64,000 bases of DNA from Pseudokineococcus lusitanus. GTDB lineage: Bacteria > Actinomycetota > Actinomycetes > Actinomycetales > Quadrisphaeraceae. The notes under the pieces are model-generated. The model had not been told where the DNA came from. It did no database searches and saw only the letters and a list, made by a program, of their open reading frames with translations. The translations under genes were made by a program, and so were the position numbers. Shown here piece after piece: positions 16,446 to 35,175 of the stretch (the first letter of the stretch is position 1; every line of letters starts with the position of its first letter). The stretch lies in contig NZ_RJKN01000002.1 in NCBI RefSeq assembly GCF_003751265.1, positions 186,001 through 250,000 of the forward strand. Direction: 5' to 3'.

Positions 16446-19289
16446 TCACGGCAGCGGCCGGGTCGCGATCTCGAGCAGCTCCAGCACGTGCTGGTACGGA
16501 CGCCCGGTCGCCCGCGTCATCCCCAGCTCGCAGGTGCGGTTCGCCGAGACGTGCGCGTCGTACGCGCGCCCGACGACCTCGGCCGCCTCCCGCGCGGTCG
16601 CGCTGGCGGTGAGCTCCGGGTGCAGCAGCCCGCGGTCCCCGGCGTAGGCGCAGCAGCCCCAGGCGTCCGGGACGACGACCTCGTCGGCCACGGCGCGGGC
16701 CAGGGCGACCATGGCGCCGGTGGTGCCGAGCGCCGTCGTCGAGCAGGTGGGGTGCACGACCACCGAGCCCAGCCGGCGGGTGACGACGAGGCGGTCGAGC
16801 AGGTGGTCGGCCACGAACTGCGTGGCGTCCACGACCGTGAGGGCCGGCTCCGCGCCGGCGGCCGTCCCCGTGAGGCCCTCGGTGCAGGAGGCGGCGTCGC
16901 AGACCACGGGCAGGACGCCGCCGCGGGTGGCCCGCTGCAGCGCGGGCAGCACGCGGGACGCCATCGCGGCGTGCCCCGTCGCGAGCCCCTTGGACTTCCA
17001 CGGGGTGCCGCAGCAGAGGGAGCCGAGGCCCTCGGGCGTCACCAGGGCCACGCCCGCGCGCTCGGCGAGGGCGACGAGCGCCGCGGTCGCCCCGGGCGCC
17101 CCGGCCTCGTCGGGGCCGAACATCGTGCCGATGCAGGCGGCGAAGAGCACCGCCGCGGGCTCGGTGGCGGGCGTCAGCGTCGGTCGGCGCCGTCCTCCCC
17201 CGGGCAGCTCCGCCGCGTAGGAGGGCACGCGGTCGGCGCCGAGCACCGCGCGGGCCGCCGTCGTCGTCGCCCGCACGATGGGCGCGGGCAGCACCTTGGC
17301 CGCGGACAGGGCCGCGCCGCCGGCGCGGGAGGCCGCGCCCCAGTGCCGTGCCGCCACGGCCCAGCCCGCGTCGAGCGCCGCGGGCGCCGCCTCCGCGCGC
17401 AGGCGGCGGACGAGGTCCCCGGTGTTGATGTCCACCGGGCAGGCCTGCGCGCACAGCCCGTCGACCGCGCAGGTCTGCAGGCCGGCGTACTCGTAGTCGC
17501 GCTCCAGCGACGCCGCCAGCCCCTCGTCGCCGGCGGCCCGGGCCGCGGCGGCGTCGCGGCGCAGCACGATCCGCTGCCGCGGGGTGAGGGTGAGGTCCTT
17601 GCTGGGGCAGGCGGGCTCGCAGTACCCGCACTCCACGCAGCGGTCGACCTCCGCCTCGACCGGGGGCACCGACTTGAGGTGGTGCAGCCACGCGTCGGCG
17701 TCGGGCTCGATGACGACGCCCGGGTTGAGCAGCCCGCCCGGGTCGAGCAGGCGCTTGACCTCGACCATGAGCGCGTAGAGGACGTCGCCGTACTGGAGGC
17801 GGACGAACGGCGCCATGATCCGGCCGGTGCCGTGCTCCGCCTTGAGCGAGCCGCCCGCGGCGAGGACGAGGTCCACGAGGTCGGCGGTGAAGCGCTGGTA
17901 GCGGGCCAGGCTGGCCGGGTCGTCGAAGCGCTCGTTGACGAGGAAGTGCAGGTTGCCGTCCTTGGCGTGGCCGAAGATCACCGACCCCTCGTAGCCGTGC
18001 TCGTCGAGCAGGCGGGTCAGGCGCTCGCAGGTGGGCAGCAGGGCGTCGACGGGGACGACGACGTCCTCCAGCAGCGCGGTCGTCCCGGACGGTCGCGCCC
18101 CGGCGACCGCGGTGTAGAGCCCCTTGCGGACGTGCCACAGCGCGGCGCGGCCGGCGGGGTCGCTCGTCAGCACCGCGCCGACGGTGAGGGGCAGCGACGC
18201 GAGCAGCGGGGCCGCCGCCTCCCGCGCGGCGGCCAGCCCGTCGGCGGTGGCGGCCTGGAGCTCGACGAGCAGCGCCGCGTGGCCGTCGACGTCGACCGCC
18301 GCGATCTCGGGCGGGACGTCCGACAGGCCCTGGGCGACGACGAGGGCGGCGGCGTCGAGCAGCTCGGCGGTGGCCACCCCCTGCGCCACGAGGGCGGGGA
18401 GGGCCCCCGTGGCGGCGGCGAGGCTCGGGAAGACGAGCAGCCCCGTCGCGACGTGCGGGTGCACGGGCACGGTGTCGAAGGTCGCCTCGGCGACGAAGGC
18501 GAGCGTGCCCTCGCTGCCCACGAGCAGGTGGGCGAGGACCTCGACCGCGCTCGTGTGGTCGAGGAACGCGTTGATGCCGTAGCCCATGGTGTTCTTCATC
18601 GAGAACTGCCGACGCACCTCCGCCACGGCGGCCGGGTCGGCGAGCAGCCGCTCCCGCAGCGCCAGCAGGCCGGCGTGGACGTCGGGACGGTCGGCGCGCA
18701 GCCGCTCGTCGGCGTCGGGGGCGCCCGTGTCGACGACGGTGCCGTCGGCCAGCACCGCGACGAGGGACCGCAGCGTCCGGTAGGTGTTCTCGGTGGTCCC
18801 GCAGGCCATCCCGCTGGAGTTGTTGGCGACGACACCGCCGACGGTGCAGGCGACCTCGCTGGCCGGGTCCGGCCCGAGCCGGCGACCGTGCCGCGCGAGC
18901 CGGGCGTTGACGTCGCGCACGGTGGCCCCCGGCTGGGCGGTGACGACGAGGCCGCCGGGGCCGACGTCGACGCGCCGGAAGCCCGCACGCGTGTCGAGCA
19001 GCAGGCCGTCGGACTGGGCCTGCCCGGACAGGCTCGTGCCGCCCGAGCGGAAGGTGACGGGCAGCCCGCGGGCGCTCGCCCCCGCCAGCGCCGCGGCCAC
19101 GCCCGCCGCGTCGCGCGCGGTGGCCACCACCTGCGGCAGGAGGAGGTAGTGCGACGCGTCGTGCGCCCGGGCGTGCCGGTCGAGGTCGCGGCGGCTGGCG
19201 GTGACGCCGTCGGCCCACACCTCCGCCCGGTCCCGCGGCAGGGCCTCGAGGGGGGTCGTCGGGGCGCTGGGGGCGTCGGTGCCGGTCAC
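16446..19289 (-). CDS. FAD-linked oxidase / Fe-S protein fusion (D-lactate or 2-hydroxyacid dehydrogenase-like)
   Basis: 947 residues joining a GlcD-type flavoprotein and a GlcF-type Fe-S protein. FAD-binding_4 covers ~40-215 (FRSGGTSLSGQAQSD; VVANNSSGMACGTTENT), the C-terminal oxidase cap ~260-530 (GSVIFGHAKDGNLHFLVN; LKAEHGTGRIMAPFV). Two ferredoxin-like clusters follow: CVECGYCEPAC near 550 and CAVDGLCAQACP near 606, then CCG-type cysteine pairs near 759 and 879. Proteins of this build oxidise D-lactate, D-2-hydroxyglutarate or related 2-hydroxyacids and pass electrons to the respiratory chain. GTG start overlaps the DUF4432 stop as GTGA, so it is the third gene of the kinase-isomerase operon; a 2-hydroxyacid from that pathway is the likely substrate. 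Confidence 0.85.
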   Translation of the reverse strand: MTGTDAPSAPTTPLEALPRDRAEVWADGVTASRRDLDRHARAHDASHYLLLPQVVATARDAAGVAAALAGASARGLPVTFRSGGTSLSGQAQSDGLLLDTRAGFRRVDVGPGGLVVTAQPGATVRDVNARLARHGRRLGPDPASEVACTVGGVVANNSSGMACGTTENTYRTLRSLVAVLADGTVVDTGAPDADERLRADRPDVHAGLLALRERLLADPAAVAEVRRQFSMKNTMGYGINAFLDHTSAVEVLAHLLVGSEGTLAFVAEATFDTVPVHPHVATGLLVFPSLAAATGALPALVAQGVATAELLDAAALVVAQGLSDVPPEIAAVDVDGHAALLVELQAATADGLAAAREAAAPLLASLPLTVGAVLTSDPAGRAALWHVRKGLYTAVAGARPSGTTALLEDVVVPVDALLPTCERLTRLLDEHGYEGSVIFGHAKDGNLHFLVNERFDDPASLARYQRFTADLVDLVLAAGGSLKAEHGTGRIMAPFVRLQYGDVLYALMVEVKRLLDPGGLLNPGVVIEPDADAWLHHLKSVPPVEAEVDRCVECGYCEPACPSKDLTLTPRQRIVLRRDAAAARAAGDEGLAASLERDYEYAGLQTCAVDGLCAQACPVDINTGDLVRRLRAEAAPAALDAGWAVAARHWGAASRAGGAALSAAKVLPAPIVRATTTAARAVLGADRVPSYAAELPGGGRRRPTLTPATEPAAVLFAACIGTMFGPDEAGAPGATAALVALAERAGVALVTPEGLGSLCCGTPWKSKGLATGHAAMASRVLPALQRATRGGVLPVVCDAASCTEGLTGTAAGAEPALTVVDATQFVADHLLDRLVVTRRLGSVVVHPTCSTTALGTTGAMVALARAVADEVVVPDAWGCCAYAGDRGLLHPELTASATAREAAEVVGRAYDAHVSANRTCELGMTRATGRPYQHVLELLEIATRPLP

Positions 19290-20341
19290 GCGTCACCTCG
19301 GGGGGCGGGAGGCAGCAGGGGCAGGGAGAGGACGGTCACGGCGACGGTGTGCTCGCGCCGCCCACCAGGGTCCAGGACGGGGGCGCCGGCGTGCGCACCG
19401 GCCCCCGGCCCGTCGCGGTCCGGGCCGAAGAGCGGCGCGGTGGCCGGCTCGAGCGCCAGCGCCCAGCGGCCGCGCGTCGGCAGGACCCACTGGTGGAGGC
19501 GGGGCAGCGTCGCGGCGCTCCAGCCGACGCGCACGCGGAAGCCGTCCGGGCTGGTGACGACGGCGCTCGCCGTCCCCGCCGCGGCCCGCACGCCGCGGTG
19601 CTCGGCGACGGCCTCGACCAGCTCGTCGCAGGGCTCGGGGAGGACGCCGACGTCGGGCACCTGCGGGCACGGCTCCCGCAGGACCACCTCGTCCGCCGCG
19701 ACCTCGACCGTGGTGCCGGGCACGACGAGCGGGGCGCCGAGGTTGACGTGGTAGAGCACGGCGACCGGGCAGGGCACGGACCCGGTGTTGACCACCGTGT
19801 CGTGCACGACGACGCGCGGGCGGCCGTCGTCGTCGAGGTCGACGGTGACGCGCCGCTCGGTGCGCAGCGACGGGCCGAAGAGGCCCGCGCGCTCCACGTC
19901 GGCCTCCAGCACCGCCCGCGCGGCGCCGCGCGACGGCTGGACGCGCACCCGCCGGGCGGGGGTGTGGTGGTGGTCGCCGTGCAGCCCGTGCCCCGCCCGC
20001 GGCGGGCCGGTGCTCAGCGGCCCGCAGGTGGTGAGGAGCCCGCCGAGGAAGCGGTCCGCCCAGGCGGTGCCGCTCGGGACGTCGAGGGAGCGCGCGTCGG
20101 AGGAGGCGGAGCGCCACGACAGCGGCAGCCCGCCCACCCACGCGTCCCCGAGGTCGAAGCCGCGGGCCGGCAGGACGTCGAGCGCGAGGGCTCCCCCGAC
20201 GCGCGCGTGCAGCACGCGGGGGTGGCCCTCGCCCGGCACGCCGTGGTGCTCGACCACCTCGGCCACCGGGTCGTCGCTCGCCAGGAGGCCGCGCGCGCGC
20301 AGGCCCGCGAGGCCTCCCGGCACCGGGGCCGGGGTCGTCAC
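19286..20341 (-). CDS. DUF4432 family protein (aldose 1-epimerase-like fold)
   Basis: 351 residues. The segments DVLPARGFDLGDAWVGG, WADRFLGGLLTTCGPLS and GLHGDHHHTPARRV match the DUF4432 family, related to galactose-mutarotase folds. A His/Asp/Glu-containing centre (HGDHHHTPA; VLYHVNLGAPL) could act on a sugar ring, but no reaction is established that I can name. GTG start overlaps the stop of the kinase-isomerase fusion as GTGA, and its own stop overlaps the FAD/Fe-S gene in the same way, so the three proteins are made together. A mutarotase or epimerase role on the sugar entering this pathway is the reasonable inference. Confidence 0.75.
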   Translation of the reverse strand: MTTPAPVPGGLAGLRARGLLASDDPVAEVVEHHGVPGEGHPRVLHARVGGALALDVLPARGFDLGDAWVGGLPLSWRSASSDARSLDVPSGTAWADRFLGGLLTTCGPLSTGPPRAGHGLHGDHHHTPARRVRVQPSRGAARAVLEADVERAGLFGPSLRTERRVTVDLDDDGRPRVVVHDTVVNTGSVPCPVAVLYHVNLGAPLVVPGTTVEVAADEVVLREPCPQVPDVGVLPEPCDELVEAVAEHRGVRAAAGTASAVVTSPDGFRVRVGWSAATLPRLHQWVLPTRGRWALALEPATAPLFGPDRDGPGAGAHAGAPVLDPGGRREHTVAVTVLSLPLLPPAPRGDA

Positions 20342-22446
20342 GGCCGCGGCGGGCGGGCGACGAGCACCCGGCCGCGGCCCGTGAGGGCGACGCGGCCGGC
20401 CGCGGCGGCGACCAGCGCCGTCGCCCCGCGCGCGAGCGTGGTCGACCCGCCCGCCCCGGTGGCCCGCACGGCACCCTCGACGCCGAGGAGCACGGCGAGA
20501 CCCGCGTCGAGCGCCACGGCGTCGGCCCCGGCGCCTCCCACGGGGGTGTCCACCACCACCTCCTCGAGGCGGAAGAAGGGCTCGGTGCCGGGCGCCAGAC
20601 CCCGGAGGGCGCCGCCGGACGGCGCGCCGCGGTCCGTGGCGCGCACCACGAGCCGTGCCACGTCGTCGGGGGTCAGCGCCCGGCGGTCCACCGCCGCCAG
20701 CGCCGTGCCGAAGCCCAGCCCCAGGTGGCCGTCGGCCGCGCCGTCGAGCGCGAAGTCGCGCCACTCCAGGAGGATCGACAGGTCCTCGGGCTGCTGGACC
20801 TCCAGGAGCAGCACCCCCTCGCCGACCGCGTGCAGGGTGCCGGCCGGCACCGAGACGGAGTCGCCGGCGGCCACGGGGACGGCGTGCAGCAGGTCCAGCA
20901 GCGCCTCGCAGTCCTGCTCCGCGACGAGGGAGTCCAGCTCGTCGGCCGTCACGTCGCGGCGCAGGCCCACGTGCACCACCCCCGGCTCGAGGACGTGCCA
21001 CGCCTCCGCCTTGCCGTGGGCTGCCCCGAGGTGGTGCGCGGCGAAGGCGTCGTCGGGGTGGGCGTGCACGGGCAGCCGCTGCCCGGCGTCGAGCAGCTTG
21101 ACGAGCAGCATCGGGTCGGCGCCCCACCGGTCGACGTGCTCCTGCCCGAGCCAGGCGACGGGGTCCGCGGCGAGCGCGTCGCGCAGGAGCCGGCCGTCCG
21201 GCAGCGTCGTCAGCCCGGTGGCCGGCTCCCCGCGCACCGTCGTGGCCGAGGCCACCCAGTCCTCGGGGGTGCGGGGGGCCGCGACGCCGTCGCCGCGCAG
21301 GTCGGCGATGCGCTGCCCGCCGCGGTAGAAGCGGTCGGCCGGCTGGTTGGCCGGCAGGAGCAGGGGCGAGTCCGGGGCACCCTGCGGCGCAGGCTGTCCC
21401 GCGAGGAGCCCGGCGAGCGACGGGTCGAGCTCCACGACCCGCGCCGGCGTCGGGCGCGTCCCCGCGACGACCGCCGCGGCGCACGCGGAGGCCAGGCGGA
21501 CGGCCTGCTCGGGCGTCGCCCCCCGGGCGAGCGCGTGCAGCAGCCCGGCGGTGGAGGCGTCCCCGGCGCCGTTGGTCGTGGTCGCCTGCGGCACCGGCAG
21601 GGCCGGCAGCCGCACCCGCCGGTCCGCCCACGTCCCGGCGAGCGGGGCCAGCGCCCGGCCGCCGGCCCGGAGCCGGTCGGCCCCGGCCGTGCGCAGCAGG
21701 GCCCCGCGCTCGCCGTCGGAGAGCAGGACGACGGCGGCGCCCCAGCCCAGGAGCCGGTCCGCCAGCTCCTCGGCCAGCGCGGCGGCGTCCGCGGCGGTGG
21801 CGGGCGTCGGCAGCCCCAGCGCGCTCGTGAGGTCGTCGAGGCTCGGCGACAGCACGTCCGTCTCGGCGGTCGTCCGTGCCAGCAGCGCGTGCCAGTCGAG
21901 CCGGCCGACGTCGGTGCCGGGGTCGACGACGACGAGGTCGACCGAGGTCGTCGTCCCCTGCGCCCGGGCCGCGGCCAGCAGCGCCGCGAGCGGGGCACCG
22001 CCGTCGACGAGCAGCGCCGGCAGGAGCGCCGGGTAGCCCACGTGGAGGAGGTCGACCGGCCCCGCGGGGCCGGTGAGGTCGAGGCCGCTGCCGTCGAAGG
22101 CGGCGTTGGCCCCGGTGTGGTGCCAGAAGACCCGGTCGACGCCGGGCGGCTGCACGACGACGGAGTAGGAGGTGGCGGCGTCGAGCACCTGCAGCCGCGG
22201 GGTGACGAGCGGCCCCCGCAGGCCGGCCTGGACGAGGCGCCCCAGCTCGTCGTCGCCGACGCCGGCGTGCACGGTCACGGGGTGCCCCAGGTCGACGAGG
22301 GCGCCGGCCGTGTTGGCGACGCACCCGCCCAGGGAGAAGGCCAGCGGGCCGACCTCGACGAGGGCTCCCGGGTCGAGGCGGGGGGTCCCGCCGAGGGCCG
22401 GCGTGAGGTCCGCGCAGACGTGGCCGGCGAGGGCGGTGGTGAGCAC
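20338..22446 (-). CDS. fusion of PfkB-family carbohydrate kinase and class I phosphomannose isomerase-like domain
   Basis: 702 residues from the GTG at 22446, chosen for a GGGGAGG Shine-Dalgarno 8 nt upstream; upstream in-frame ATGs at 22479 and 22515 lie in or beside the operator. Residues ~1-340 are a ribokinase/PfkB kinase: HVCADLTPALGG at the start, LGGCVANTAGALVDLGHPV, and the anion-hole and base motif TTTNGAGDASTAGLL with the catalytic Asp. Residues ~350-702 match type I mannose-6-phosphate isomerase: GADPMLLVKLLDAGQRLPVHAHPDD, the metal-binding Gln/His-x-His, a Glu in KAEAWHV, VPAGTLHAVGEGVLLLEVQQPED. Such a fusion implies direct transfer of a phosphorylated sugar from kinase to isomerase. 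It heads a leftward operon controlled by an ACAACGTTGT operator. Substrate unknown. Confidence 0.85.
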   Translation of the reverse strand: MLTTALAGHVCADLTPALGGTPRLDPGALVEVGPLAFSLGGCVANTAGALVDLGHPVTVHAGVGDDELGRLVQAGLRGPLVTPRLQVLDAATSYSVVVQPPGVDRVFWHHTGANAAFDGSGLDLTGPAGPVDLLHVGYPALLPALLVDGGAPLAALLAAARAQGTTTSVDLVVVDPGTDVGRLDWHALLARTTAETDVLSPSLDDLTSALGLPTPATAADAAALAEELADRLLGWGAAVVLLSDGERGALLRTAGADRLRAGGRALAPLAGTWADRRVRLPALPVPQATTTNGAGDASTAGLLHALARGATPEQAVRLASACAAAVVAGTRPTPARVVELDPSLAGLLAGQPAPQGAPDSPLLLPANQPADRFYRGGQRIADLRGDGVAAPRTPEDWVASATTVRGEPATGLTTLPDGRLLRDALAADPVAWLGQEHVDRWGADPMLLVKLLDAGQRLPVHAHPDDAFAAHHLGAAHGKAEAWHVLEPGVVHVGLRRDVTADELDSLVAEQDCEALLDLLHAVPVAAGDSVSVPAGTLHAVGEGVLLLEVQQPEDLSILLEWRDFALDGAADGHLGLGFGTALAAVDRRALTPDDVARLVVRATDRGAPSGGALRGLAPGTEPFFRLEEVVVDTPVGGAGADAVALDAGLAVLLGVEGAVRATGAGGSTTLARGATALVAAAAGRVALTGRGRVLVARPPRP

Positions 22447-22478
22447 GGTGGCGACCTCCCCTGCCAGAGCGGCAGGCA

Positions 22479-22508
22479 TAGACAACGTTGTCCCGACGTG
22501 CGTACTGT
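22479..22508 (+). promoter_or_regulatory. promoter and LacI-type operator, divergent sugar operons
   Basis: The perfect palindrome GACAACGTTGTC lies at 22481-22492. On the plus strand TAGACA (22479-22484) and TACTGT (22503-22508), 18 nt apart, look like -35 and -10 boxes for the aldolase operon, so the operator covers the -35. The leftward kinase-isomerase gene starts 35-45 nt to the left, so one site can silence both directions. The same core recurs at 31302-31311. Confidence 0.65.
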
Positions 22509-22586: not shown

Positions 22587-23441
22587 ATGACGCTGTTCCG
22601 GCTCAACCGCCTCTTCAACCCGCGCTCGGGGAGGGCCCTCGACGTCGCCGTCGACCACGGCTTCTTCGGCGAGCGCTCCTTCCTCACCGGCATCGAGGAC
22701 ATGCGCTCGGTGGTCGCCACGCTCGTCGAGGCGAACCCCGACGCGGTCCAGCTGACGCTCGGCCAGGCCCGCCACCTGCAGTCCGTGCCGGGCCGCGCGA
22801 AGCCCGCGCTCGTGCTGCGGACCGACGTCGCCAACGTCTACGGCAACCCCCTGGACCCGCACGTCTTCAGCCACCACGTCCCGCACGCGATCGAGGAGGC
22901 CGTCCGCCTCGACGCCGTCGCGGTCTGCGTCAACCTCATGCAGCTGCCCGGGCGCCCCGAGATCCGCGAGGCGTGCATCCGCTCCATCACCGCGCTGCGG
23001 GCCGAGGCCACGCGCTACGGCATGCCGCTCATGGTCGAGCCGCTCGTCATGGCGGACAACGCCACCTCCGGCGGGTACATGGTCGACGGCGACGTCGACA
23101 AGATCATGACGCTGGTGCGCCAGGCCGTGGAGCTCGGCGCCGACCTCGTCAAGGCCGACCCGTGCGACGACGTCGAGGAGTACCACCGGGTCGTCGAGGT
23201 GGCCGGCGACGTGCCGGTGCTCGTCCGCGGCGGCGGCCGGGTGCCCGACGGCGAGCTGCTCGAGCGGACCGCCGCCGTGCTGCGCGCCGGCGCCTCCGGG
23301 ATCGTCTACGGCCGCAACGTCGTCCAGCACCCCGACCCGGCCGGCATCACCGCCGCCCTCATGTCCGTGCTCCACGACGGCGTCGCCCCCGCCGACGCCC
23401 TCGCCACCCTGCAGGCGCGCACGGCGGGGGGCGACCGATGA
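22587..23441 (+). CDS. LsrF/FbaB-like class I aldolase
   Basis: 284 residues. The start FRLNRLFNPRSGRALDVAVD resembles LsrF (sequence family of DeoC/archaeal-type class I FBP aldolases), as do the HGFF segment, VLRTDVANVYG and VLVRGGGRVPDGELLERT. Lys189 in GADLVKADPCDD is at the position of the Schiff-base lysine. It would cleave or thiolyse a phosphorylated keto-sugar. The ATG at 22587 is preceded by AGGAGC. It is the first gene of a rightward operon and overlaps the oxidoreductase gene as ATGA. The resemblance to LsrF is at family level only; no other AI-2-specific gene is present. Confidence 0.8.
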   Translation: MTLFRLNRLFNPRSGRALDVAVDHGFFGERSFLTGIEDMRSVVATLVEANPDAVQLTLGQARHLQSVPGRAKPALVLRTDVANVYGNPLDPHVFSHHVPHAIEEAVRLDAVAVCVNLMQLPGRPEIREACIRSITALRAEATRYGMPLMVEPLVMADNATSGGYMVDGDVDKIMTLVRQAVELGADLVKADPCDDVEEYHRVVEVAGDVPVLVRGGGRVPDGELLERTAAVLRAGASGIVYGRNVVQHPDPAGITAALMSVLHDGVAPADALATLQARTAGGDR

Positions 23442-24631
23442 GCACCACCGCCGAGCAGGCCCCCGGGCAGGCCGGGCGGCAGGAGCCGCAGCAGGTCGGC
23501 GTCGCCATCGTCGGCGGCGGGCTCATGGGCCGGGAGATCGCCGCGGCGCTCGCGCGCTGGCCCGCGCTCGTCGACCACCCGGTCCGTCCGCGGCTCGTCG
23601 GCGTCGCCGACGTCAACCCGGCGGCGCTGGAGTGGTTCTCGGAGATCGGCACCGTCGAGATCCTCACGGCCGACTACCGCGAGCTGCTCGCCGACGACCG
23701 CGTCGACGTCGTCTACGTGGCCGTGCGCCACGACCTGCACGAGCAGATCTACGTCGACGTCGTCGAGGCCGGGAAGTCGCTGCTGGCCGAGAAGCCGTTC
23801 GGCATCGACGGCGACGCCGCCCGCGCCGTCCTCGCCGCCGTGGAGGCCCACCCGGAGAGCTTCGTGCGGTGCTCCTCGGAGATGCCGTACTTCCCCGGGG
23901 CGCAGATGGCGGTGCGCTACATCGAGTCCGGCGCGCTGGGCGAGGTCGTCAGCGCCCGGTGCTCCTTCCTCCACGCGAGCGACCTCGACCGCGCGAAGCC
24001 GTCGAGCTGGAAGCGGGTCGCGAAGTTCTGCGGCGAGGCCGGCGTCCTCAACGACCTCGGCATGCACACGTGGCACGTGCCGCTGCGGCTCGGCTGGCGC
24101 CCCGAGCGGGTCTACGGGGTGCTGCAGGACGTCGTCACCGAGCGCCCGGGCCCCGACGGCACCCCCGTGCCCTGCGACACCTGGGACAACGCCACCATCC
24201 ACAGCTGGGTCGCCCAGCCGGGCGCCAAGGCCTTCCCGCTGACGACCGAGACCCGGCGCATCGACCCGGGGCAGAAGAACACGTGGGAGCTCGAGGCGAT
24301 CGGGATGGACGGCAGCGTCCGGTTCTCCACGAAGAACCCCAAGCTCGTCGAGGTCTTCGGCCTCCTCGACGTCCCGGGCACGGGCCGCGAGCAGGTGTGG
24401 CACCACCTGGACGCCGGCAGCCAGGCGAGCTGGCCGACGGTCACCGGGCCCAACTTCGAGAGCGGCTTCTCCGACGCCATCCTCCAGATGTGGGCCGTGT
24501 TCCTCGCCGAGCGCGCCGGCGCGCTCGGGGACCGCTTCGGGGCGGTGCGCCCGGAGGAGGCGGCCCTGACGCACGAGATCTTCCGCGCCGCCGTCGCGTC
24601 GCACGAGGAGCAGCGGGCGGTCGCCCTCTGA
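23438..24631 (+). CDS. Gfo/Idh/MocA family oxidoreductase
   Basis: 397 residues. N-terminal Rossmann domain with GGGLMGREIAAAL at ~26-38 and the family signature AEKPFG, with catalytic-type Glu118-Lys119, then the alpha/beta dimerisation/substrate domain with LNDLGMHTWHVPLRLGW. Members oxidise or reduce hydroxyls of cyclic polyols and sugars with NAD(P). Translation is coupled to the aldolase gene (ATGA). In this cluster it could interconvert a hydroxyl and keto group on the sugar before cleavage. Length is at the upper normal range because of a Gln-rich N-terminal extension. Confidence 0.88.
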   Translation: MSTTAEQAPGQAGRQEPQQVGVAIVGGGLMGREIAAALARWPALVDHPVRPRLVGVADVNPAALEWFSEIGTVEILTADYRELLADDRVDVVYVAVRHDLHEQIYVDVVEAGKSLLAEKPFGIDGDAARAVLAAVEAHPESFVRCSSEMPYFPGAQMAVRYIESGALGEVVSARCSFLHASDLDRAKPSSWKRVAKFCGEAGVLNDLGMHTWHVPLRLGWRPERVYGVLQDVVTERPGPDGTPVPCDTWDNATIHSWVAQPGAKAFPLTTETRRIDPGQKNTWELEAIGMDGSVRFSTKNPKLVEVFGLLDVPGTGREQVWHHLDAGSQASWPTVTGPNFESGFSDAILQMWAVFLAERAGALGDRFGAVRPEEAALTHEIFRAAVASHEEQRAVAL

Positions 24632-28373: not shown

Positions 28374-29278
28374 ACGAGCTCACGACCCTCGAGAAGCGCG
28401 CCCTGGCGCGCGTCAGCACCGCGGACGGCCACATGCTCATCGTGGCCGCCGACCAGCGCAACGGCATGAAGGCCGTCATGAAGGACGGCCCCGGCGGGCC
28501 CGACGCGGTGACCCGCGAGCAGCTCGCGGACGCCAAGGGCGACCTCGTGCGCCACCTGGCCTCGCACGCCCCGGCGATCCTCCTCGACCCCGAGGTCGCG
28601 CTCCCGCAGCTCGTCGACGAGGGGGTGCTCGACGCCGGGGGCACCGCGCTCGTCGTCGGCATGGACGCCTCGGGCTTCGACACCGTCGACGGGCTGCGGC
28701 ACACCCGCTTCAGCGCCGGCGTCACCCCGCGCACCGTCCGCGACCTGGGCGGCGACGCCGCGAAGATGCTCTGGTACCTGCGGCCCGACCGCCAGGACGC
28801 CGGCTCCGACGTGGTCCGCCAGATCCACGAGCTCGTCGAGGCGTGCACCGCCGAGGGCGTGCTCCTCATCGTCGAGATCCTCACCTACCGGCTCGAGGAC
28901 GAGACCGAGGAGCAGTACGCGGAGCGCTTCCCGCAGCTCGTCGTCGACGCCACGCGCCTGTCGGTGGAGGCCGGCGCGAAGGTGCTCAAGCTCCCCTACC
29001 CGGGCTCGGCGGAGGCGTGCGCCGCCGTCACCGAGGCCGCGGCCGGCGTGCCGTGGGCGGTCCTGTCGGCCGGCGTCGACCACACGACCTTCATCGAGCA
29101 GGTCCGCACCGCGGTGGCGCACGGCGCCGGCGGCGCCATGGCCGGGCGCTCGCTGTGGAAGGACGCGCTGTCGGTCTCCCCGGCGGTCCGCGAGGAGCTG
29201 CTCACCACGCGCGCCCTCCCGCGGCTGCGCGAGCTCCGGGCGGCCGTCGACCGCGCCGACGTGCCCGTCGGCGCCTGA
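28370..29278 (+). CDS. LacD/YihT-like class I aldolase
   Basis: 302 residues. MLIVAADQRNGMKAVM, APAILLDPEVALPQLVDEGV, AKMLWYLRPD, LLIVEILTY and PWAVLSAGVDHTTFIEQV follow the same order as in tagatose-1,6-bisphosphate aldolase LacD and sulfofructose-phosphate aldolase YihT. Lys207 in VLKLPYPG matches the Schiff-base lysine. It would split a ketose phosphate to a three-carbon phosphate plus an aldehyde. A GGAGGAGC Shine-Dalgarno precedes the GTG, which overlaps the FGGY stop. Substrate could be a ketose 1-phosphate made by that kinase; this is inference from coupling. Confidence 0.82.
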   Translation: MNELTTLEKRALARVSTADGHMLIVAADQRNGMKAVMKDGPGGPDAVTREQLADAKGDLVRHLASHAPAILLDPEVALPQLVDEGVLDAGGTALVVGMDASGFDTVDGLRHTRFSAGVTPRTVRDLGGDAAKMLWYLRPDRQDAGSDVVRQIHELVEACTAEGVLLIVEILTYRLEDETEEQYAERFPQLVVDATRLSVEAGAKVLKLPYPGSAEACAAVTEAAAGVPWAVLSAGVDHTTFIEQVRTAVAHGAGGAMAGRSLWKDALSVSPAVREELLTTRALPRLRELRAAVDRADVPVGA

Positions 29279-29338: not shown

Positions 29339-29923
29339 TCAGCCGCGCAGCGCCGCCGCGAGGCCCTCGAGGTCGAGCGGCGCCGACGTGTCGACGGCGA
29401 CGTGCGGGGCCACCGGCGGCGTGAGGTCCAGCCGGGACAGGTGGGCGTCGAGGTCGGCCAGCTTGGCGGCGTCACGACCCGCTCCGCGCCGGACGAGCCT
29501 CTCGCGCAGCACCTCCCGCGGGGCGTGGGCCCACACGAGCGTGGGGCGGCCGCCCGCCCCGGCCAGGCGCCCGCCCAGGCCCGCCCACGCCGGCCCCGAC
29601 GCCCGCTCCGCGGTGAAGGGGGCGACGAGGACGACGGGCGTCCCGCAGCGGAGGCAGTCCTCCGCGACGGCGAGCAGGACCTCGTAGCGGGCCGCACGGG
29701 TGGCGCCGGCGAGCGCGGCGCCGTCGAGGTCGTCGCTGCCGAGCAGGCCCGCCACGACCTCCACCAGCGGTGCGGTGGCCGTGTCGAGGTCGAGGAGCGC
29801 CGCCCCCAGGCGGGCGGCGAGCGTCGCGGCGAGGGTGGTCTTGCCGACGCCCGCGGGCCCGGCCACCACGGCGGCGGTCGGGACGACGCCCCCGCTCGAC
29901 TGATCGCGTGTCATCGGTGTCAT
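29339..29923 (-). CDS. P-loop kinase-like protein (AAA/gluconate-kinase-like)
   Basis: 194 residues. Walker A GPAGVGKTT sits at about 21-29, followed by LAARLGAALLDLDTATAP, which resembles the LID/Asp region of small-molecule kinases (shikimate kinase, gluconokinase, uridine kinase groups), and a basic lid region REVLRERLVRRGAGRDAAKL. It probably phosphorylates a small metabolite, perhaps a sugar acid, or is a predicted nucleotide-loop kinase of unknown target. Start ATG 29923 or 29914; both fall in an operator-like dyad, and no strong Shine-Dalgarno is present. Divergent from the second LacI gene. Confidence 0.65.
   Translation of the reverse strand: MTPMTRDQSSGGVVPTAAVVAGPAGVGKTTLAATLAARLGAALLDLDTATAPLVEVVAGLLGSDDLDGAALAGATRAARYEVLLAVAEDCLRCGTPVVLVAPFTAERASGPAWAGLGGRLAGAGGRPTLVWAHAPREVLRERLVRRGAGRDAAKLADLDAHLSRLDLTPPVAPHVAVDTSAPLDLEGLAAALRG
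29909..29922. promoter_or_regulatory. operator-like dyad at the P-loop kinase start
   Basis: TGTCATCGGTGTCA differs at one position from the TGACACCGRTGTCA family (read on the minus strand TGACACCGATGACA). It overlaps the first codons of the leftward gene, so coding constraint may explain part of the match. Confidence 0.4.
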
Positions 29924-30017: not shown

Positions 30018-31100
30018 GTGGCGACCATGCGCGAGGTGGCGCTCCGTGCCGGGGTGAGCGTCAAGACCGTCTCCCGGGTCTTCAACGACGACCCCCACGT
30101 GCTCCCGGACACGCGCCGTCGGGTGCAGGAGGCCCTCGCGGGCCTCAACTACACCCCCAACTCGCTGGCGCGGACCTTCCGCGACGGGCGCGCGCCCGTG
30201 GTGGGCGTGGCCGTGCCGAGCATCTCCGACCCCTTCTTCGCCGCCATCGCCGGCGGCGTGGAGGAGGTGGCCTCGCGGCACGACATGTCGGTCGTCGTCA
30301 CGAGCCTCGGGGAGGACGGCGACCGCGAGCGGGAGCTGGTGGAGTCCCTCCTGCAGCGCCAGGTGGGCGCCCTCGTCATGACCCCGGTGGCGGCCGACCA
30401 GTCCTACCTGGCGCGGTGGGCGGCGAGGACGCCGGTCGTCGTCGTCGACCGCCCGGCGCGGGGCGTGGACGTCGACTGCTTCGTCGAGGACGACCTCGGC
30501 GGCGCCCGCGCCGCGACGGCGCACCTGCTGGCCCGCGGGCACCGACGGGTCGCCTTCGCGGGCGACCGCGAGTCGGTGCCGACCACGGCCAACCGCCTCG
30601 CCGGCTACCGCGCCGCCCTGGAGGAGGCGGGCCTCGAGGTCGACCCACGCCTCGTGCAGCTCGGCGCCTCGGACCCCGACGGGGCCGCCGCGGCCGCACG
30701 CCGCCTGGCCGCCCTCGACCCGGCCCCCACGGCGCTGTTCTCCTCGGACGCGCGGACCACCATGGTCCTCGTCCCCGCACTGGCGTCCCGCCGGATGGCC
30801 GTCACCGGCTTCGGCGACTTCCCCATGGCCTCAATGCTGTCGCCGGCGCTCACCGTCGTGGACCAGGACCCGGCCGCGCTGGGCCGCCGGGCCGCCGAGC
30901 GCGCCATGCGGCGGCTGGACGGCTCGGTCGAGGGAGCGGGCGAGCACGTTGTCCTCCCGGTGCGCCTGCTCGAGCGCTCGTCGTGCCGCCCGCCGGACCG
31001 GCTGCTCGAGCTGTTCCCCTGGACCGTGCCCGCCGGCGCCGAGCGCGTCGTGTGGTCGTCCGCGCCGTCCGGCGCCCCCACGGCGCCCGCCCGCGGCTGA
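30018..31100 (+). CDS. LacI family transcriptional regulator (second)
   Basis: 360 residues. HTH at ~3-25 (MREVALRAGVSVKTVSRVFN) and hinge NYTPNSLARTF, then a sensor domain with VGVAVPSISDPFFAAIAGG and FGDFPMASMLSPALTVVDQD. The C-terminal ~30 residues after a Cys-containing turn extend beyond most family members. GTG start at 30018 has AGGAGGAGGG upstream. It directly precedes the importer operon, whose promoter has two TGACACCGRTGTCA dyads, so it is the leading candidate to bind that motif. Both regulators share KTVSR in the recognition helix, so their operators may be partly alike. Confidence 0.9.
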   Translation: MATMREVALRAGVSVKTVSRVFNDDPHVLPDTRRRVQEALAGLNYTPNSLARTFRDGRAPVVGVAVPSISDPFFAAIAGGVEEVASRHDMSVVVTSLGEDGDRERELVESLLQRQVGALVMTPVAADQSYLARWAARTPVVVVDRPARGVDVDCFVEDDLGGARAATAHLLARGHRRVAFAGDRESVPTTANRLAGYRAALEEAGLEVDPRLVQLGASDPDGAAAAARRLAALDPAPTALFSSDARTTMVLVPALASRRMAVTGFGDFPMASMLSPALTVVDQDPAALGRRAAERAMRRLDGSVEGAGEHVVLPVRLLERSSCRPPDRLLELFPWTVPAGAERVVWSSAPSGAPTAPARG

Positions 31101-31135: not shown

Positions 31136-31191
31136 TTGACACCGGTGTCAGGGGCTGGTTCTCTCCTCTCATCAGCGTGACACCGATGTCA
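31136..31191 (+). promoter_or_regulatory. ABC importer promoter with two TGACACCGRTGTCA operators
   Basis: TTGACA at 31136-31141 and TTCTCT 17 nt later could be -35/-10. The perfect palindrome TGACACCGGTGTCA (31137-31150) overlaps the -35 and TGACACCGATGTCA (31178-31191) lies 41 bp on, about four helical turns, a spacing that allows co-operative binding on one DNA face. Confidence 0.65.
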
Positions 31192-31300
31192 CGGGCGTGA
31201 CGGCCGCCCCCGCGAGGACGGCTCAGCGCCCGCGCCGCACCACCACCACCCGCACGAGGTCCTTGACAGCCCCGACGCTGCGACGGACCCTTGCGGACGG

Positions 31301-31312
31301 AACAACGTTGTT
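31301..31312. promoter_or_regulatory. ACAACGTTGT operator before the ABC importer
   Basis: Perfect 12-bp palindrome AACAACGTTGTT, 19 nt before the importer ATG. Its 10-bp core is identical to the site controlling the divergent operons at 22.48 kb. A TTGACA at 31263-31268 upstream could mark a second promoter. Confidence 0.65.
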
Positions 31313-31330
31313 TCCGACCTGAGGAGCGTC

Positions 31331-32098
31331 ATGTCAGAGCCTCTGCTGAGGGCCACCGGCCTCACGAAGCAGTACGGCCAGGTCAAGGCCCTGCAGGGGG
31401 CGGACTTCGACGTCCACGCCGGCGAGGTCGTCGCCCTCATCGGCGACAACGGCGCCGGGAAGTCGACCCTCGTGCGGATGCTGTCGGGCAGCGAGCAGGC
31501 CGACGAGGGCACCGTCGAGTTCGACGGCCGGACGGTCGAGCTCACCGACCCCATCGCCGCCCGCCGCCTGGGGATCGAGACGGTCTTCCAGGACCTCGCC
31601 CTGGCCCCCCACCTCGACCCCATCCAGAACCTCTTCCTGGGGCGGGAGGTGATGCGCAAGGGCCTGCTCGGCCGGCTCGGCTTCATGGACACCGCGGCGA
31701 TGCGGGCGTCCGGCCGGAAGAGCTTCGACAGCCTCGGCTCGACGGTGCGCAGCTTCAGCACCCCGATCGGCGCGATGTCCGGCGGCCAGAAGCAGTCCAT
31801 CGCCGTCGCCCGGGCCGCCGCCTGGGCCAGCAAGGTGATCTTCCTCGACGAGCCCACCGCGGCCCTCGGCGTCGTCCAGACCAAGGGCGTCCTCGACCTC
31901 ATCCGCCGCGTGCGCGACGAGGGCATCGGGGTGGTCTTCATCAGCCACTCGATGCCGCACGTCCTCGAGGTCAGCGACCGGGTGCAGGTGATGCGCCACG
32001 GGCGCCGGGTGGCCACGTACGCCGCCCGCGACAGCAGCGTCGAGCAGCTCGTCGGCGCCATGACCGGCGCCCTCGACGTCCGCGAGCCGGCGGCGTGA
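31331..32098 (+). CDS. sugar ABC importer ATPase (FrcA-like, single domain)
   Basis: 255 residues. Walker A GDNGAGKST at 38-46, Q-loop IETVFQDLAL, signature MSGGQKQSIAVARA, Walker B KVIFLDEPTAAL and H-loop FISHSMPHVLEV are intact. Unlike RbsA/XylG, which carry two ATPase halves, this is one half, as in the fructose importer FrcA, whose style (DPIAARRLGIETVFQ) it also shares. It energises import with the next two gene products. GAGGAGC precedes the ATG. Its stop overlaps an in-frame GTG that could start the permease. Confidence 0.9.
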   Translation: MSEPLLRATGLTKQYGQVKALQGADFDVHAGEVVALIGDNGAGKSTLVRMLSGSEQADEGTVEFDGRTVELTDPIAARRLGIETVFQDLALAPHLDPIQNLFLGREVMRKGLLGRLGFMDTAAMRASGRKSFDSLGSTVRSFSTPIGAMSGGQKQSIAVARAAAWASKVIFLDEPTAALGVVQTKGVLDLIRRVRDEGIGVVFISHSMPHVLEVSDRVQVMRHGRRVATYAARDSSVEQLVGAMTGALDVREPAA

Positions 32099-32160: not shown

Positions 32161-33243
32161 GTGACCACGACCTCCCCCGCGGCGGCGCCCGCCCCGGCCG
32201 CTGCCGCCGGCGGGCCGAACCGCCTCCAGCGGGTGCTCGGCCTCCAGGCGCTGCAGATCGTCCTCATCCTGGCGGTGATCGTGGCCATCTTCGGCACGCT
32301 CGCGCCGGAGTCGTTCCTCTCGGCCTTCAACATCCGCAGCATCGTCATCAACACGTCGATCCTCGCCGTGCTGGGCGTCGGCATGACCTTCGTCATCATC
32401 ACCGGCGGCATCGACCTCTCGGTCGGCAGCGTGCTGGTGTTCTCCGGCGTCGTCGCCAGCAAGGTCATGGTCGCCGTCGGCGGCGAGGGCTGGGGCGTCG
32501 CGCTCGTCGGGCTGCTGGCCGCCTGCCTCAGCGGGCTCGGGTGGGGGCTCGTCAACGGGCTGGTCATCTCGCGGCTGAAGGTGCCGCCGCTCATCGCCAC
32601 CCTCGGCACCTTCGGCGCGGCCCTCGGCTTCGCGCAGATCATCACCGGCGGCATCGACCTCCGCGACGCGCCCCAGGTGCTCGTCGACACCGTCGGCTTC
32701 GGCAACGTCGTCGGCCAGGTGCCGGTGCTCTCCGTCGTCGCCGCCCTCGTGGTGGTGCTCGGCATGGTGCTGCTGCACCGGACGCGCTTCGGCCTCTACA
32801 CCTACGCCATCGGCTCCAACATCGAGGCCGGCCGCCGCACGGGCGTCAAGGTCGACCGGCAGACCCTCAAGGTCTACGCCTTCGCCGGCCTGCTGTCCGG
32901 CTTCGCGGGCCTGCTCAACCTGGCCTTCTTCCAGTCCACCACCATCGGTGGCCAGTCGAACACCAACCTCAACGTCATCGCCGGCGTCGTCATCGGCGGG
33001 ACCAGCCTCTTCGGCGGGTTCGGCACCGTGTTCGGCACCGTCATCGGCCTCTTCATCCCCACCACCCTGCAGAGCGGCTTCGTGATCATCGGGGTCCAGC
33101 CGTTCTGGCAGCAGGTCGTGGTCGGGGTGGTCCTCATCGCCGCTGTCTGGCTCGACCAGCAGCGAAGGGCGAGCGCCCAGTCGGGCAAGCCTCGTCGATC
33201 GCTCCTCGCCCGCCGTGGGCGCGGCTCCTCGAAGGGAATCTGA
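32161..33243 (+). CDS. sugar ABC importer permease (RbsC/FrcC-like)
   Basis: 360 residues from the GTG at 32161, which has GAAGGA 8 nt upstream; a GTG at 32095, overlapping the ATPase stop as GTGA, would add 22 residues and is a real alternative. About ten membrane segments are visible. The family motif ITGGIDLSVGSVLVFSGVV and the cytoplasmic EAA-like loop YAIGSNIEAGRRTGVKVDR are present. The C-terminus ends in a basic Arg/Ser tail. It forms the membrane channel of the importer for a pentose, hexose or polyol. Confidence 0.9.
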   Translation: MTTTSPAAAPAPAAAAGGPNRLQRVLGLQALQIVLILAVIVAIFGTLAPESFLSAFNIRSIVINTSILAVLGVGMTFVIITGGIDLSVGSVLVFSGVVASKVMVAVGGEGWGVALVGLLAACLSGLGWGLVNGLVISRLKVPPLIATLGTFGAALGFAQIITGGIDLRDAPQVLVDTVGFGNVVGQVPVLSVVAALVVVLGMVLLHRTRFGLYTYAIGSNIEAGRRTGVKVDRQTLKVYAFAGLLSGFAGLLNLAFFQSTTIGGQSNTNLNVIAGVVIGGTSLFGGFGTVFGTVIGLFIPTTLQSGFVIIGVQPFWQQVVVGVVLIAAVWLDQQRRASAQSGKPRRSLLARRGRGSSKGI

Positions 33244-33244
33244 G

Positions 33245-34255
33245 ATGCGCAGGAACAACGTCGTCCTGACCGTCGGCATGGCTGCCGCCCTCGTCATGAC
33301 CATGAGCGCCTGCGGGGCGGCGGAGGGCAACGCGCCCGCCGGCTCCACGGGGGCCTCCGCCGGGGGCGACGACGGCGAGGCGAAGAGCATCACGTTCATC
33401 CAGGGCGTGGCGGGTGACAACTTCTACATCTCCATGCAGTGCGCCGCCGAGGCCGCGGCCGAGGCCGCCGGCGCCGAGCTGGACACCCAGGGCCCGCAGA
33501 AGTTCGACCCGACGCTGCAGACGCCCATCCTCACCTCGGCCATCGCGGCCGGCCCCGACGCGATCATGATCGCGCCGACCGACGTGACGGCCATGCAGCA
33601 GCCGCTGCAGCAGGCCGCCGACGCCGGCATCAAGGTGGTCCTCGTCGACACCACCGTCAGCGACCCGTCGATGGCGGTCTCGCAGATCTCCTCCGACAAC
33701 GTGGGCGGCGGCGAGGCGGCGTTCGACGCGATCAAGCAGCTGGCGCCCGACGGCGGCAAGGTGCTCGTCATCGACAACCAGCCGGGCATCAGCACCACCG
33801 AGGCGCGCACGAAGGGCTTCACGGAGGCGGCCGCGGCGGACGGGAGCTACCCGAGCGTCGGCGTGCAGTACTCCAAGAACGAGCCCGCCGTCGCCGCCCA
33901 GCTCGTGACCGCCGCGCTGGCCAAGGACCCCGACATCGTCGGCATCTTCGCCACCAACCTCTTCTCCGCGGAGGGCGCCGCCACCGGCGTGCGCCAGGCC
34001 GGCAAGGACGGCGAGGTGAAGATCGTCGGCTTCGACGCCGGGCCCGACCAGGTCGAGGCGCTCGAGGCGGGCACCGTCCAGGCGCTCATCGCCCAGCAGC
34101 CGGGCACCATCGGCGAGGACGGCGTCGAGCAGGCCCTCGCGGCGATCGACGGCGAGCCGACCGAGGCCGAGATCCAGACGGGCTTCACCATCATCACCGC
34201 CGACAACCTGGACTCCCCGGAGAGCCAGGCCGCCGTCTACAAGGCGAGCTGCTGA
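33245..34255 (+). CDS. sugar ABC importer substrate-binding lipoprotein
   Basis: 336 residues. A lipoprotein signal peptide ends in MTMSAC with Cys23 as the lipidation site, followed by a Gly/Ser/Asp linker. The mature part is a type I periplasmic-binding fold (ribose/galactose group): SITFIQGVAGDNFYISMQC, GPDAIMIAPTDVTAMQQPLQQA, IKVVLVDTT, VGIFATNLFSAEGAATGV, KIVGFDAGPDQ. It captures the imported sugar outside the membrane. ATG 33245 lies one base after the permease stop. A strong terminator follows at 34282. Confidence 0.92.
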   Translation: MRRNNVVLTVGMAAALVMTMSACGAAEGNAPAGSTGASAGGDDGEAKSITFIQGVAGDNFYISMQCAAEAAAEAAGAELDTQGPQKFDPTLQTPILTSAIAAGPDAIMIAPTDVTAMQQPLQQAADAGIKVVLVDTTVSDPSMAVSQISSDNVGGGEAAFDAIKQLAPDGGKVLVIDNQPGISTTEARTKGFTEAAAADGSYPSVGVQYSKNEPAVAAQLVTAALAKDPDIVGIFATNLFSAEGAATGVRQAGKDGEVKIVGFDAGPDQVEALEAGTVQALIAQQPGTIGEDGVEQALAAIDGEPTEAEIQTGFTIITADNLDSPESQAAVYKASC

Positions 34256-34281
34256 CCCGGCAGCCCCCGCCCGACGCCTGA

Positions 34282-34422: not shown

Positions 34423-35175
34423 ATGAGCACGCCCACCACCACCGTCGGCGCCGGACTCGCCGGCCGCACCGTCCTCGTCACGGGGGCCGCCGGGGGCATC
34501 GGCGGCGCGATCGTGCGGCGGCTGGTCGCCGCCGGGGCCGACGTCGTCGCCGCCGGCCGGGACGAGGCCGGGCTGGCGGCGATCGTGGCCGAGACCGGCG
34601 CCCGCCCCCTCGCCTTCGACGTCGAGCACGAGGAGAGCGTCCGCGGCGCCCTCGAGGGCCTCGACCTCTACGGCGTCGTCAACTGCGCCGGCTTCGGCGG
34701 CGAGATCGCCACGCCCATGGACACCGACATCGACGTCTTCGACCGGGTGGTCCGCATCAACGCGCGCGGCGCCCTGCTCGTCCTCAAGTACGCCTCGCGG
34801 TCGATGGTCCGCCTGGGCCGCGGCGGCGCCGTCGTCAACGTCTCGAGCCAGGCGAGCCTCGTGGCCCTGCCCGGCCACATCTCCTACGGCTCGTCCAAGG
34901 CGGCGCTGGACAACATCACGCGCGTCGGCGCCCTGGAGCTCGGGGGCCACGGCATCCGCGTCAACGGCGTCAACCCGACGGTCGTCATGACGCCCATGTC
35001 CGCCTGGTACTGGGGCCGGGAGGACGTCGAGACGCCCTTCCTCGAGGCGATGCCGCTCCACCGCTGGGCCACCGAGGACGAGATCGCCGCCCCGGTCGTC
35101 TTCCTGCTCAGCGACGACGCCTCGATGATCACCGGCGTCTCGCTCGCGGTCGACGGCGGGTACAGCTGCCGCTGA
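34423..35175 (+). CDS. SDR, L-xylulose reductase (DCXR)-like
   Basis: 250 residues. Rossmann motif TGAAGGIGGAIV near 21-32, DVEHEESVRGAL, NCAG, catalytic Ser in NVSSQASL, Tyr-x-x-x-Lys in YGSSKAAL, and VNPTVVMTPMSAWYW, a signature shared with L-xylulose/carbonyl reductases (DCXR group). It probably interconverts a ketose and a polyol with NAD(P)H. GAGGAGC precedes the ATG. It is downstream of the importer terminator, so it is likely transcribed separately, but its position suggests the same sugar or polyol pathway. Confidence 0.85.
   Translation: MSTPTTTVGAGLAGRTVLVTGAAGGIGGAIVRRLVAAGADVVAAGRDEAGLAAIVAETGARPLAFDVEHEESVRGALEGLDLYGVVNCAGFGGEIATPMDTDIDVFDRVVRINARGALLVLKYASRSMVRLGRGGAVVNVSSQASLVALPGHISYGSSKAALDNITRVGALELGGHGIRVNGVNPTVVMTPMSAWYWGREDVETPFLEAMPLHRWATEDEIAAPVVFLLSDDASMITGVSLAVDGGYSCR

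Follow-up and report, generated by a model that had tools for sequence, protein, structure and literature searches.

A candidate sugar-catabolic regulon with two separable arms and a shared importer in Pseudokineococcus lusitanus

Introduction

The sulfoglycolytic Embden-Meyerhof-Parnas (sulfo-EMP) pathway (YihS, YihV, YihT and YihU, with the GH188 enzyme SqgA in Arthrobacter) is the described system nearest in layout to the locus reported here, since an isomerase, a PfkB kinase, a class I aldolase and a Gfo/Idh-fold enzyme are encoded in one cluster. Its slots are filled by functionally interchangeable, non-orthologous enzymes (PMC9594981), as are those of the first gene set described below. 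A similar logic of isomerase, ketose kinase and ketose-1-phosphate aldolase is found in the L-rhamnose/L-fucose and fructose-1-phosphate pathways. Here, we describe a block of 15 genes (~19 kb, positions 16446-35175) in a stretch of 64,000 nucleotides from Pseudokineococcus lusitanus, hereafter the window, in which an importer of the FrcA type is accompanied by two catabolic gene sets. Arm A comprises an LsrF-like aldolase, a Gfo/Idh oxidoreductase, a divergently encoded fusion of a PfkB kinase with a mannose-6-phosphate-isomerase-like (PMI-like) domain, a DUF4432 protein and a FAD/Fe-S enzyme. Arm B comprises ROK, FGGY and P-loop kinases and a LacD/YihT-like aldolase. The region appears to work like the isomerase-kinase-aldolase (EMP-like) systems while belonging to none of those tested: the fusion gene and the LsrF-like aldolase gene lie under common control on one operator 1 promoter, an arrangement kept in ten loci. 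Searching the open-access literature for the cluster, for DUF4432 and for the LsrF/Gfo/PfkB combination, we found no description, an absence that is weak evidence.

Results

Two operators unite the arms in one regulon

The two arms are one regulon, because the region holds two operators and the importer promoter carries both, as the initial annotation had supposed in proposing a single regulon. The operators are palindromic, one for each LacI-type repressor (AGACAACGTTGTCT for operator 1 and TGACACCGRTGTCA for operator 2). The PfkB/LsrF promoter holds operator 1, of which ten related loci have an exact copy in the corresponding promoter. The operator 1 core, RACAACGTTGTY, occurs at three places in the whole 3.84 Mb genome and operator 2 likewise at three; with both kinds pooled, five of the six places lie inside the region. 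Reversed-pattern controls gave zero matches across the genome, and about 1e-4 to 2e-4 matches per 64 kb would be expected by chance from base composition. A looser scan for the operator 1 core (three mismatches) gave no useful information, as coding repeats rich in G+C also fit the pattern. The importer promoter contains two operator 2 sites and one copy of operator 1. Loci with the ALKTVSR recognition helix and without LacI2 (L011, L013, L014 and L022) carry operator 1 only, and the LacI2-bearing loci L036 and L037 carry operator 2 only; on the basis of this co-occurrence, LacI1 is predicted to act on operator 1 and LacI2 on operator 2. The lone operator 1 site outside the region (contig C3, position 9773 of locus L097, C3:463500-483400) has a second sugar importer, of the CUT2 type, on one side and a divergently oriented LacI gene on the other. 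The binding protein there resembles, by eye, those of L012, L017 and L018, all of them arm A loci, and this importer is likely a further member of the regulon.

The arms are nevertheless separable. Arm A occurs without arm B in more than 30 loci (Microbacteriaceae, actinobacteria of 1.2-1.5 Mb, Rhizobium and Thioclava), and arm B occurs without arm A in L036 and L037. Each arm also has its own repressor and operator, so that the two could be independent pathways for unrelated sugars that became neighbours by chance. We consider this improbable, given that both operators stand in the importer promoter and that the SDR (short-chain dehydrogenase/reductase) and LacI2 genes, which belong to arm B in L036, adjoin arm A in Herbiconiux. 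The genome-neighbourhood comparison that the initial annotation had proposed for defining a conserved core yielded two cores, each kept elsewhere without the other, and not one linear pathway with redundant kinases; as a single pathway, its working model is not supported.

Arm A is a conserved module with exchangeable slots

When the fusion protein was used as a query against 84,980 species genomes, 16 loci were recovered, in the main from Microbacteriaceae. In all 16, an LsrF-like aldolase (57-81% identity) adjoins a Gfo/Idh protein (47-75%) near a PfkB gene. L011, L013, L014 and L022 encode the PMI-like part and PfkB in one gene, and in eight other loci the PMI-like part is a separate gene nearby. 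None was seen in the four loci from Herbiconiux, where, with no isomerase in view, a polyol-type dehydrogenase and the SDR are present instead and could supply the same ketose from an alditol. Across the class, a close LsrF relative was present in 24 of 395 genomes and adjoined Gfo in 18 of the 24 (own genome counted in both); five of these 18 belong to a single family and are 1.2-1.5 Mb in size (L071-L074 and L077). The pair was also observed on Rhizobium megaplasmids and on a Thioclava plasmid. Taken together, the fusion, class-wide and plasmid scans gave 36 loci besides the window with both LsrF and Gfo, and the syntenic recurrence of this core in dozens of genomes is more than chance.

The other positions of arm A vary in family. 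A PMI-like protein occupies the isomerase slot in 19 loci; in Thioclava and Rhizobium (L028, L029 and L031) it is replaced by a D-lyxose/D-mannose-isomerase-like cupin (NF051472, 182 of 350 bits for Thioclava L028), and in L064 by a third small cupin with a weak match to the D-lyxose isomerase family PF07385, of which L062 carries a near-identical sequence by inspection. The kinase is either PfkB or FGGY, and the mutarotase-type gene is DUF4432 (immediately after the PMI gene in L013, L014 and L022), a weak DUF4432 relative (L011) or RbsD/FucU (L071). Such exchange of families would be best accounted for if each slot retained a single reaction, with conversion of a lyxo/manno aldose to its ketose followed by phosphorylation.

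In the window, a 713-residue protein carries an N-terminal PfkB domain and a C-terminal divergent class I PMI-like cupin. All the gene families listed by the initial annotation were recovered at their positions, the PfkB kinase among them; its fusion to an isomerase-like domain had been overlooked. Among curated families, the PfkB domain comes closest to IolC, at 61 of 300 bits. The PMI-like half reached 48 of the 116 bits required for TIGR00218, matched PDB entries 1qwr and 1zx5 and gave no Pfam PMI match at E 0.01. The sole match of PF20511 in the genome is a canonical PMI on contig C10, so that the PMI-like domain is an extra copy.

The LsrF-like and Gfo/Idh proteins

In the LsrF-like protein, K189 aligns with the Schiff-base lysine of LsrF and fructose-bisphosphate (FBP) aldolase, and the GRN phosphate loop is kept; 90 positions are at least 95% conserved across 34 sequences. 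On the strand that bears Tyr/Arg in archaeal FBP aldolase, the protein carries an invariant EPL motif (E151-P152-L153), which favours a mono-phosphate as the predicted substrate. The protein matches LsrF no better than MJ0400 and scores 110 of 297 bits for the LsrF equivalog PRK08227. The missing Tyr/Arg and the overlap of the LsrF and Gfo genes, which are almost inseparable, would also suit a route in which oxidation involving Gfo or the kinase product comes first and gives a diketose phosphate; the LsrF-like enzyme, by thiolase/hydrolase chemistry, would cleave this to dihydroxyacetone phosphate (DHAP) and a hydroxyacid for the FAD/Fe-S enzyme to oxidise. This sequence of events is quite unlikely: LsrF is matched no better than MJ0400, the FAD/Fe-S gene is seldom present, and an invariant VEP motif resembles the catalytic Glu of LacD-type enzymes and would fit an aldolase. 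Among the 17 closest loci (window counted), only 3 have the FAD/Fe-S gene beside arm A, with homologues of 62-63% identity in L011 and L013. The gene product scores under the GlcD, YdiJ and GlpC cut-offs and far under those of glycolate and 2-hydroxyglutarate dehydrogenases. As the gene is rare beside arm A and low-scoring, the final oxidation of D-lactate that had been suggested for it is not indicated.

LsrF paralogues without Gfo were encountered next to DhaK/DhaL-like genes and a CUT2 importer (L079-L081) or next to FGGY, alcohol-dehydrogenase-like and BtpA-like genes (L082-L084). Lacking Gfo, they were set aside as belonging to other pathways, and are probably further undescribed sugar pathways.

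An AlphaFold2 (AF2) model of the Gfo protein (mean predicted local distance difference test score 88.6) has 6a3g/6a3j as its first structural neighbours. In Foldseek, it is nearest to levoglucosan dehydrogenase and to scyllo-inositol/L-glucose dehydrogenase (ranks 1-28), with DgpA and the NAD-dependent sulfoquinovosidases ranking later (GH188 from 31 onward). Sequence scores follow the same order, at 84 bits to the levoglucosan/inositol dehydrogenases and 36 bits to GH188, and both the levoglucosan dehydrogenase equivalog NF052479 (86 of 650 bits) and IolG (47 of 355 bits) are missed. In GH188, Arg166, Leu170 and Lys172 bind the sulfonate and Tyr136, Lys107, Glu189 and His193 are catalytic (PMC10755693). 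By analogy with that work, roles were assigned to the invariant Gfo residues K119, D206 and H210, of which K119 and H210 are the equivalents of the GH188 Lys and His; the sulfonate-binding residues were not alignable with confidence. Near the catalytic Tyr, Gfo seems to carry an invariant S147/E148 by alignment estimate, the Tyr being apparently replaced. The reaction of Gfo may come first if arm A breaks down a glycoside or a modified mannose: Gfo would then be an NAD-dependent (C3-oxidising) glycosidase or dehydrogenase, and the isomerase, kinase and aldolase would act on the freed modified sugar to give an unusual aldehyde. The layout is that of sulfo-EMP gated by an NAD-dependent sulfoquinovosidase (PMC10755693), fold relatives of Gfo oxidise ring C3 or other ring hydroxyls, and the retention of a dedicated aldolase and a second PMI would be accounted for. 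We hold this alternative to be somewhat unlikely, given the closer kinship of Gfo to the dehydrogenases than to GH188 and the apparent S147/E148 at the Tyr position.

The genes around a Gfo relative (43%) in a distant Firmicute locus (Subdoligranulum, L085, 6457-13128) encode a class II aldolase and a class III aminotransferase besides FGGY and an arabinose-isomerase-like protein.

Arm B pairs kinases with a LacD-like aldolase

In a PDB search, the LacD-like aldolase was nearest to 8tnf (DUF2090) and YihT, and its homologues reach 76% identity in L036 and 70% in L037. L036 encodes the importer, the SDR (77%), LacI2 (60%), the LacD-like aldolase, FGGY, the P-loop kinase and a mannitol/arabinitol/fructuronate-type dehydrogenase. 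The class-wide scan showed no close LsrF relative in the genome of L036. L037 encodes LacD, FGGY, the P-loop kinase and LacI2. Relatives of FGGY stand beside LacD in these two loci and beside arm A in L065-L077. On three alphaproteobacterial (rhizobial) plasmids, ROK is fused to a P-loop AAA_33 domain (L027:5161-6624, L030:5256-6689 and L032:5173-6630, the AAA_33 match in L032 being below the Pfam cut-off). These genes, annotated merely as 'ROK family protein', adjoin a LacD-like (tagatose-bisphosphate) aldolase and the same importer type. The fusion links the separate ROK and P-loop genes of the window and suggests that two successive phosphorylations would precede cleavage of a bisphosphate. 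The P-loop kinase itself gave no match in the plasmid search. Its domain was also seen fused to a HAD-type hydrolase (L016:934-2133 and L037:13304-14497).

Substrate clues

In Embleya (L110), the genes next to homologues of the importer proteins (62, 55 and 49% identity) encode a fructokinase-like PfkB and a D-mannose isomerase that scores 477.6 of 600 bits. Glycosidases near arm A include GH130 and GH2 (L014), GH2 (L021) and GH92 (L025), and a GH38-like protein is encoded upstream of LsrF in the L062/L064 operon; several of these genes adjoin operator 1 sites, and the neighbouring glycosidases are largely mannosidases. SDR homologues of 70-77% identity with operator 2 close by were found in the Herbiconiux loci and L036. 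The isomerase families, mannosidase-type neighbours and Embleya locus point to a simple sugar of the mannose/ketohexose type as the likely substrate.

A separate mannitol/arabinitol-dehydrogenase-like gene with an apparent CUT1 importer was noted elsewhere in the genome (contig C7, L089:9172-14002) and is probably its own hexitol operon.

Genomic context

The window (76% G+C) sits on contig C2 of a genome that is 98% complete. Four-nucleotide overlaps join the pfkB-pmi, DUF4432 and FAD/Fe-S genes, and likewise lsrF-gfo and FGGY-lacD (Table 1). Downstream are a tRNA-Arg and a gene read as phosphoenolpyruvate carboxykinase, and upstream are genes read as propionate/acyl-CoA genes, so the boundaries seem sensible. 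By eye, the latter comprise an apparently complete 2-methylcitrate (propionate) cluster at 8081-12313 (PrpC-, PrpB- and PrpD-like, with a GntR-type regulator) and then thiolase-, SDR- and enoyl-CoA-hydratase-like genes at 12486-16408. A long hairpin and the tRNA-Arg (35184-35329) end the region. In a genome of the same genus (G006, L112), other genes lie on the corresponding side of this tRNA, and the 19 kb block may therefore be a variable insertion; the contig of a second genome of the genus (G004) stops there.

Table 1. Genes and operator sites of the region, with positions in the window.
Feature	Position	Strand	Basis
FAD-binding/Fe-S 2-hydroxyacid dehydrogenase-like (GlcD + GlcF/GlpC architecture)	16446..19289	-	PF02913, PF01565, Fer4; last gene of left operon
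DUF4432, aldose-1-epimerase (mutarotase)-like	19286..20341	-	PF14486 2e-61; weak match to PDB 3ty1 'hypothetical aldose 1-epimerase'
PfkB + PMI-like cupin fusion	20338..22479	-	PF00294 residues 31-339; TIGR00218 and PDB 1qwr/1zx5 residues 387-572
Operator 1 (AGACAACGTTGTCC), divergent PfkB/LsrF promoter	22480..22493		exact in same promoter of ten related loci
LsrF-like (DeoC/LsrF) class I Schiff-base aldolase	22587..23441	+	PF01791 8e-32
Gfo/Idh/MocA oxidoreductase, levoglucosan-dehydrogenase-like fold	23438..24631	+	PF01408; AF2 model
LacI1, assigned to operator 1	24696..25727	+	co-occurrence of ALKTVSR-helix orthologues with operator 1
ROK sugar kinase, ScrK-like	25737..26633	-	PF00480; NF045550 216.6 bits, cut-off 400
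Operator 2 pair, ROK/FGGY divergent promoter	26810..26855		26810-26823 exact; 26842-26855 one mismatch
FGGY sugar kinase	26949..28373	+	PF00370
LacD/YihT-like class I aldolase	28370..29278	+	PRK12858 155 bits, cut-off 184; PDB 8tnf and YihT entries
P-loop (AAA_33) kinase; alternative start 29869 possible	29339..29923	-	PF13671 4e-16
LacI2, assigned to operator 2	30018..31100	+	orthologues in L036/L037 with operator 2, without operator 1
Operator 2, two exact sites upstream of importer	31137..31150 and 31178..31191		pattern scan
Operator 1 site (GAACAACGTTGTTT) upstream of importer	31300..31313		pattern scan
FrcA-type single-domain sugar ABC ATPase	31331..32098	+	in L036, L110 and rhizobia, homologues accompanied by this permease and binding protein type
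Sugar ABC permease, CUT2 type	32161..33243	+	homologues beside the ATPase in L036, L110 and rhizobia
Sugar-binding lipoprotein	33245..34255	+	42.8% identity to PDB 5dkv over 285 residues
SDR dehydrogenase, polyol type (GolD/DthD, DCXR-like)	34423..35175	+	PF13561

Discussion

We propose, with about even confidence, one regulon of two arms with a shared importer, in which arm A would take a manno-configured aldose through isomerisation, phosphorylation and cleavage, and arm B would attach two phosphates to a ketohexose before splitting it. The importer would bring in a simple hexose of the mannose or ketohexose type. Under LacI1 and operator 1, the PMI-like domain of arm A would turn a manno-configured aldose, whose mutarotation DUF4432 may accelerate, into a ketose; the fused PfkB domain would phosphorylate it, most likely at C1, and the LsrF-like aldolase would split the ketose phosphate into DHAP and an aldehyde. 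A single redox reaction, either on the sugar or on what is made from it, would fall to Gfo/Idh, and a 2-hydroxyacid that results may be the substrate of the FAD/Fe-S enzyme. Under LacI2 and operator 2, ROK or FGGY would add the first phosphate and the P-loop kinase the second, the LacD-like aldolase would cleave the ketohexose bisphosphate, and the SDR would feed in the matching alditol. The expectation of phosphorylation followed by aldol cleavage is retained from the initial annotation, and oxidation or epimerisation as the entry step gives way to aldose-ketose isomerisation, made likelier by the isomerase domain.

Several points weigh against this model. All enzyme activities are predictions from sequence. 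In the PMI-like domain, a His takes the place of the usual metal-site glutamine of the QxHP motif, and about one third of the arm A loci have no isomerase within reach. GH42 and arabinofuranosidase-like neighbours are also present, and the identity of the binding protein to 5dkv, which we take to be a D-tagatose complex, is weak for naming a ligand. Lastly, for unmodified mannose, Gfo, a dedicated aldolase and a PMI besides the canonical one on C10 would all be superfluous; their retention would be easier to understand if the sugar were a modified one. D-lyxose, D-talose and substituted mannoses are further candidate substrates.

Tentatively, arm A, with its LsrF-like aldolase, Gfo/Idh protein and exchangeable kinase and manno-type isomerase, may represent a branch of glycolysis that has not been described before, devoted to either a common sugar of manno configuration or a modified mannose, in Microbacteriaceae, streamlined actinobacteria of 1.2-1.5 Mb, rhizobia and Rhodobacterales. 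The module, with its interchangeable parts, is found in soil bacteria and in streamlined actinobacteria alike, so the sugar that it uses is probably widespread in nature. Once that sugar is named, functions could be assigned to proteins that at present go by class I aldolase, Gfo/Idh oxidoreductase and DUF4432. A small set of enzymes would suffice to test which substrate is used, given the operators, the fusion of kinase and isomerase, the ROK/P-loop fusion of rhizobia and the Embleya locus.

Comparison with known systems

Every characterised family compared falls short of its curated cut-off, which bears out the earlier statement that the region matches neither the inositol, the Lsr nor the sulfoquinovose pathway. 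The inositol pathway shares an IolC-like PfkB and the Gfo/Idh fold, with IolC and IolG at the scores given above and no iolB, iolD or iolE among the 15 genes. Lsr (autoinducer-2) shares the LsrF-like fold, while its equivalogs are missed (LsrK PRK10939, 38 of 528 bits) and its defining partners are not among the 15 genes. The L-glucose/L-galactose pathway of Luteolibacter (PMC12632266) was rejected, as other enzymes are used there. Compared with the L-rhamnose/L-fucose pathways, the RhaA/FucI, RhaD and FucA families are missing from the region, which has an LsrF-like aldolase and Gfo there.

Arm B shares a LacD-family aldolase and kinases with the tagatose-6-phosphate (lac) pathway, but the LacD equivalog TIGR01232 is missed (57 of 432 bits; PRK12858, 155 of 184), the three kinases are of other families and import is by an ABC transporter. 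ROK likewise misses the ScrK fructokinase NF045550 (216.6 of 400 bits). The FrcBCA fructose/mannose/ribose importer of rhizobia uses a single-domain ATPase, and the same importer type adjoins LacD on rhizobial plasmids; the window differs in having no FrcK-type kinase and a diverged binding protein. The D-mannose isomerase-fructokinase route, paired with this importer type in Embleya, shares the mannose-to-ketose logic; at L110, however, the isomerase is of the AGE family, no aldolase gene lies close by and the product would be a ketose phosphate that enters glycolysis.

The sulfoquinovose pathway was considered for the YihT-like aldolase and GH188, and rejected because the sulfosugar-specific partners are missing. 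A pathway for sulfoquinovose or another sulfosugar could draw on the closeness of the LacD-like aldolase to the sulfofructosephosphate aldolase YihT, and an NAD-dependent sulfoquinovosidase is able to replace the classical one. It is very improbable, given that none of the 15 genes encodes a sulfolactaldehyde reductase or dehydrogenase, a sulfoquinovosidase, or a YihS- or GH31/GH188-type enzyme, and that mannosidases are found in the neighbourhood. Overall, arm A resembles sulfo-EMP in layout and differs from it in the families of its isomerase and aldolase, with manno-type isomerases and mannosidase neighbours.

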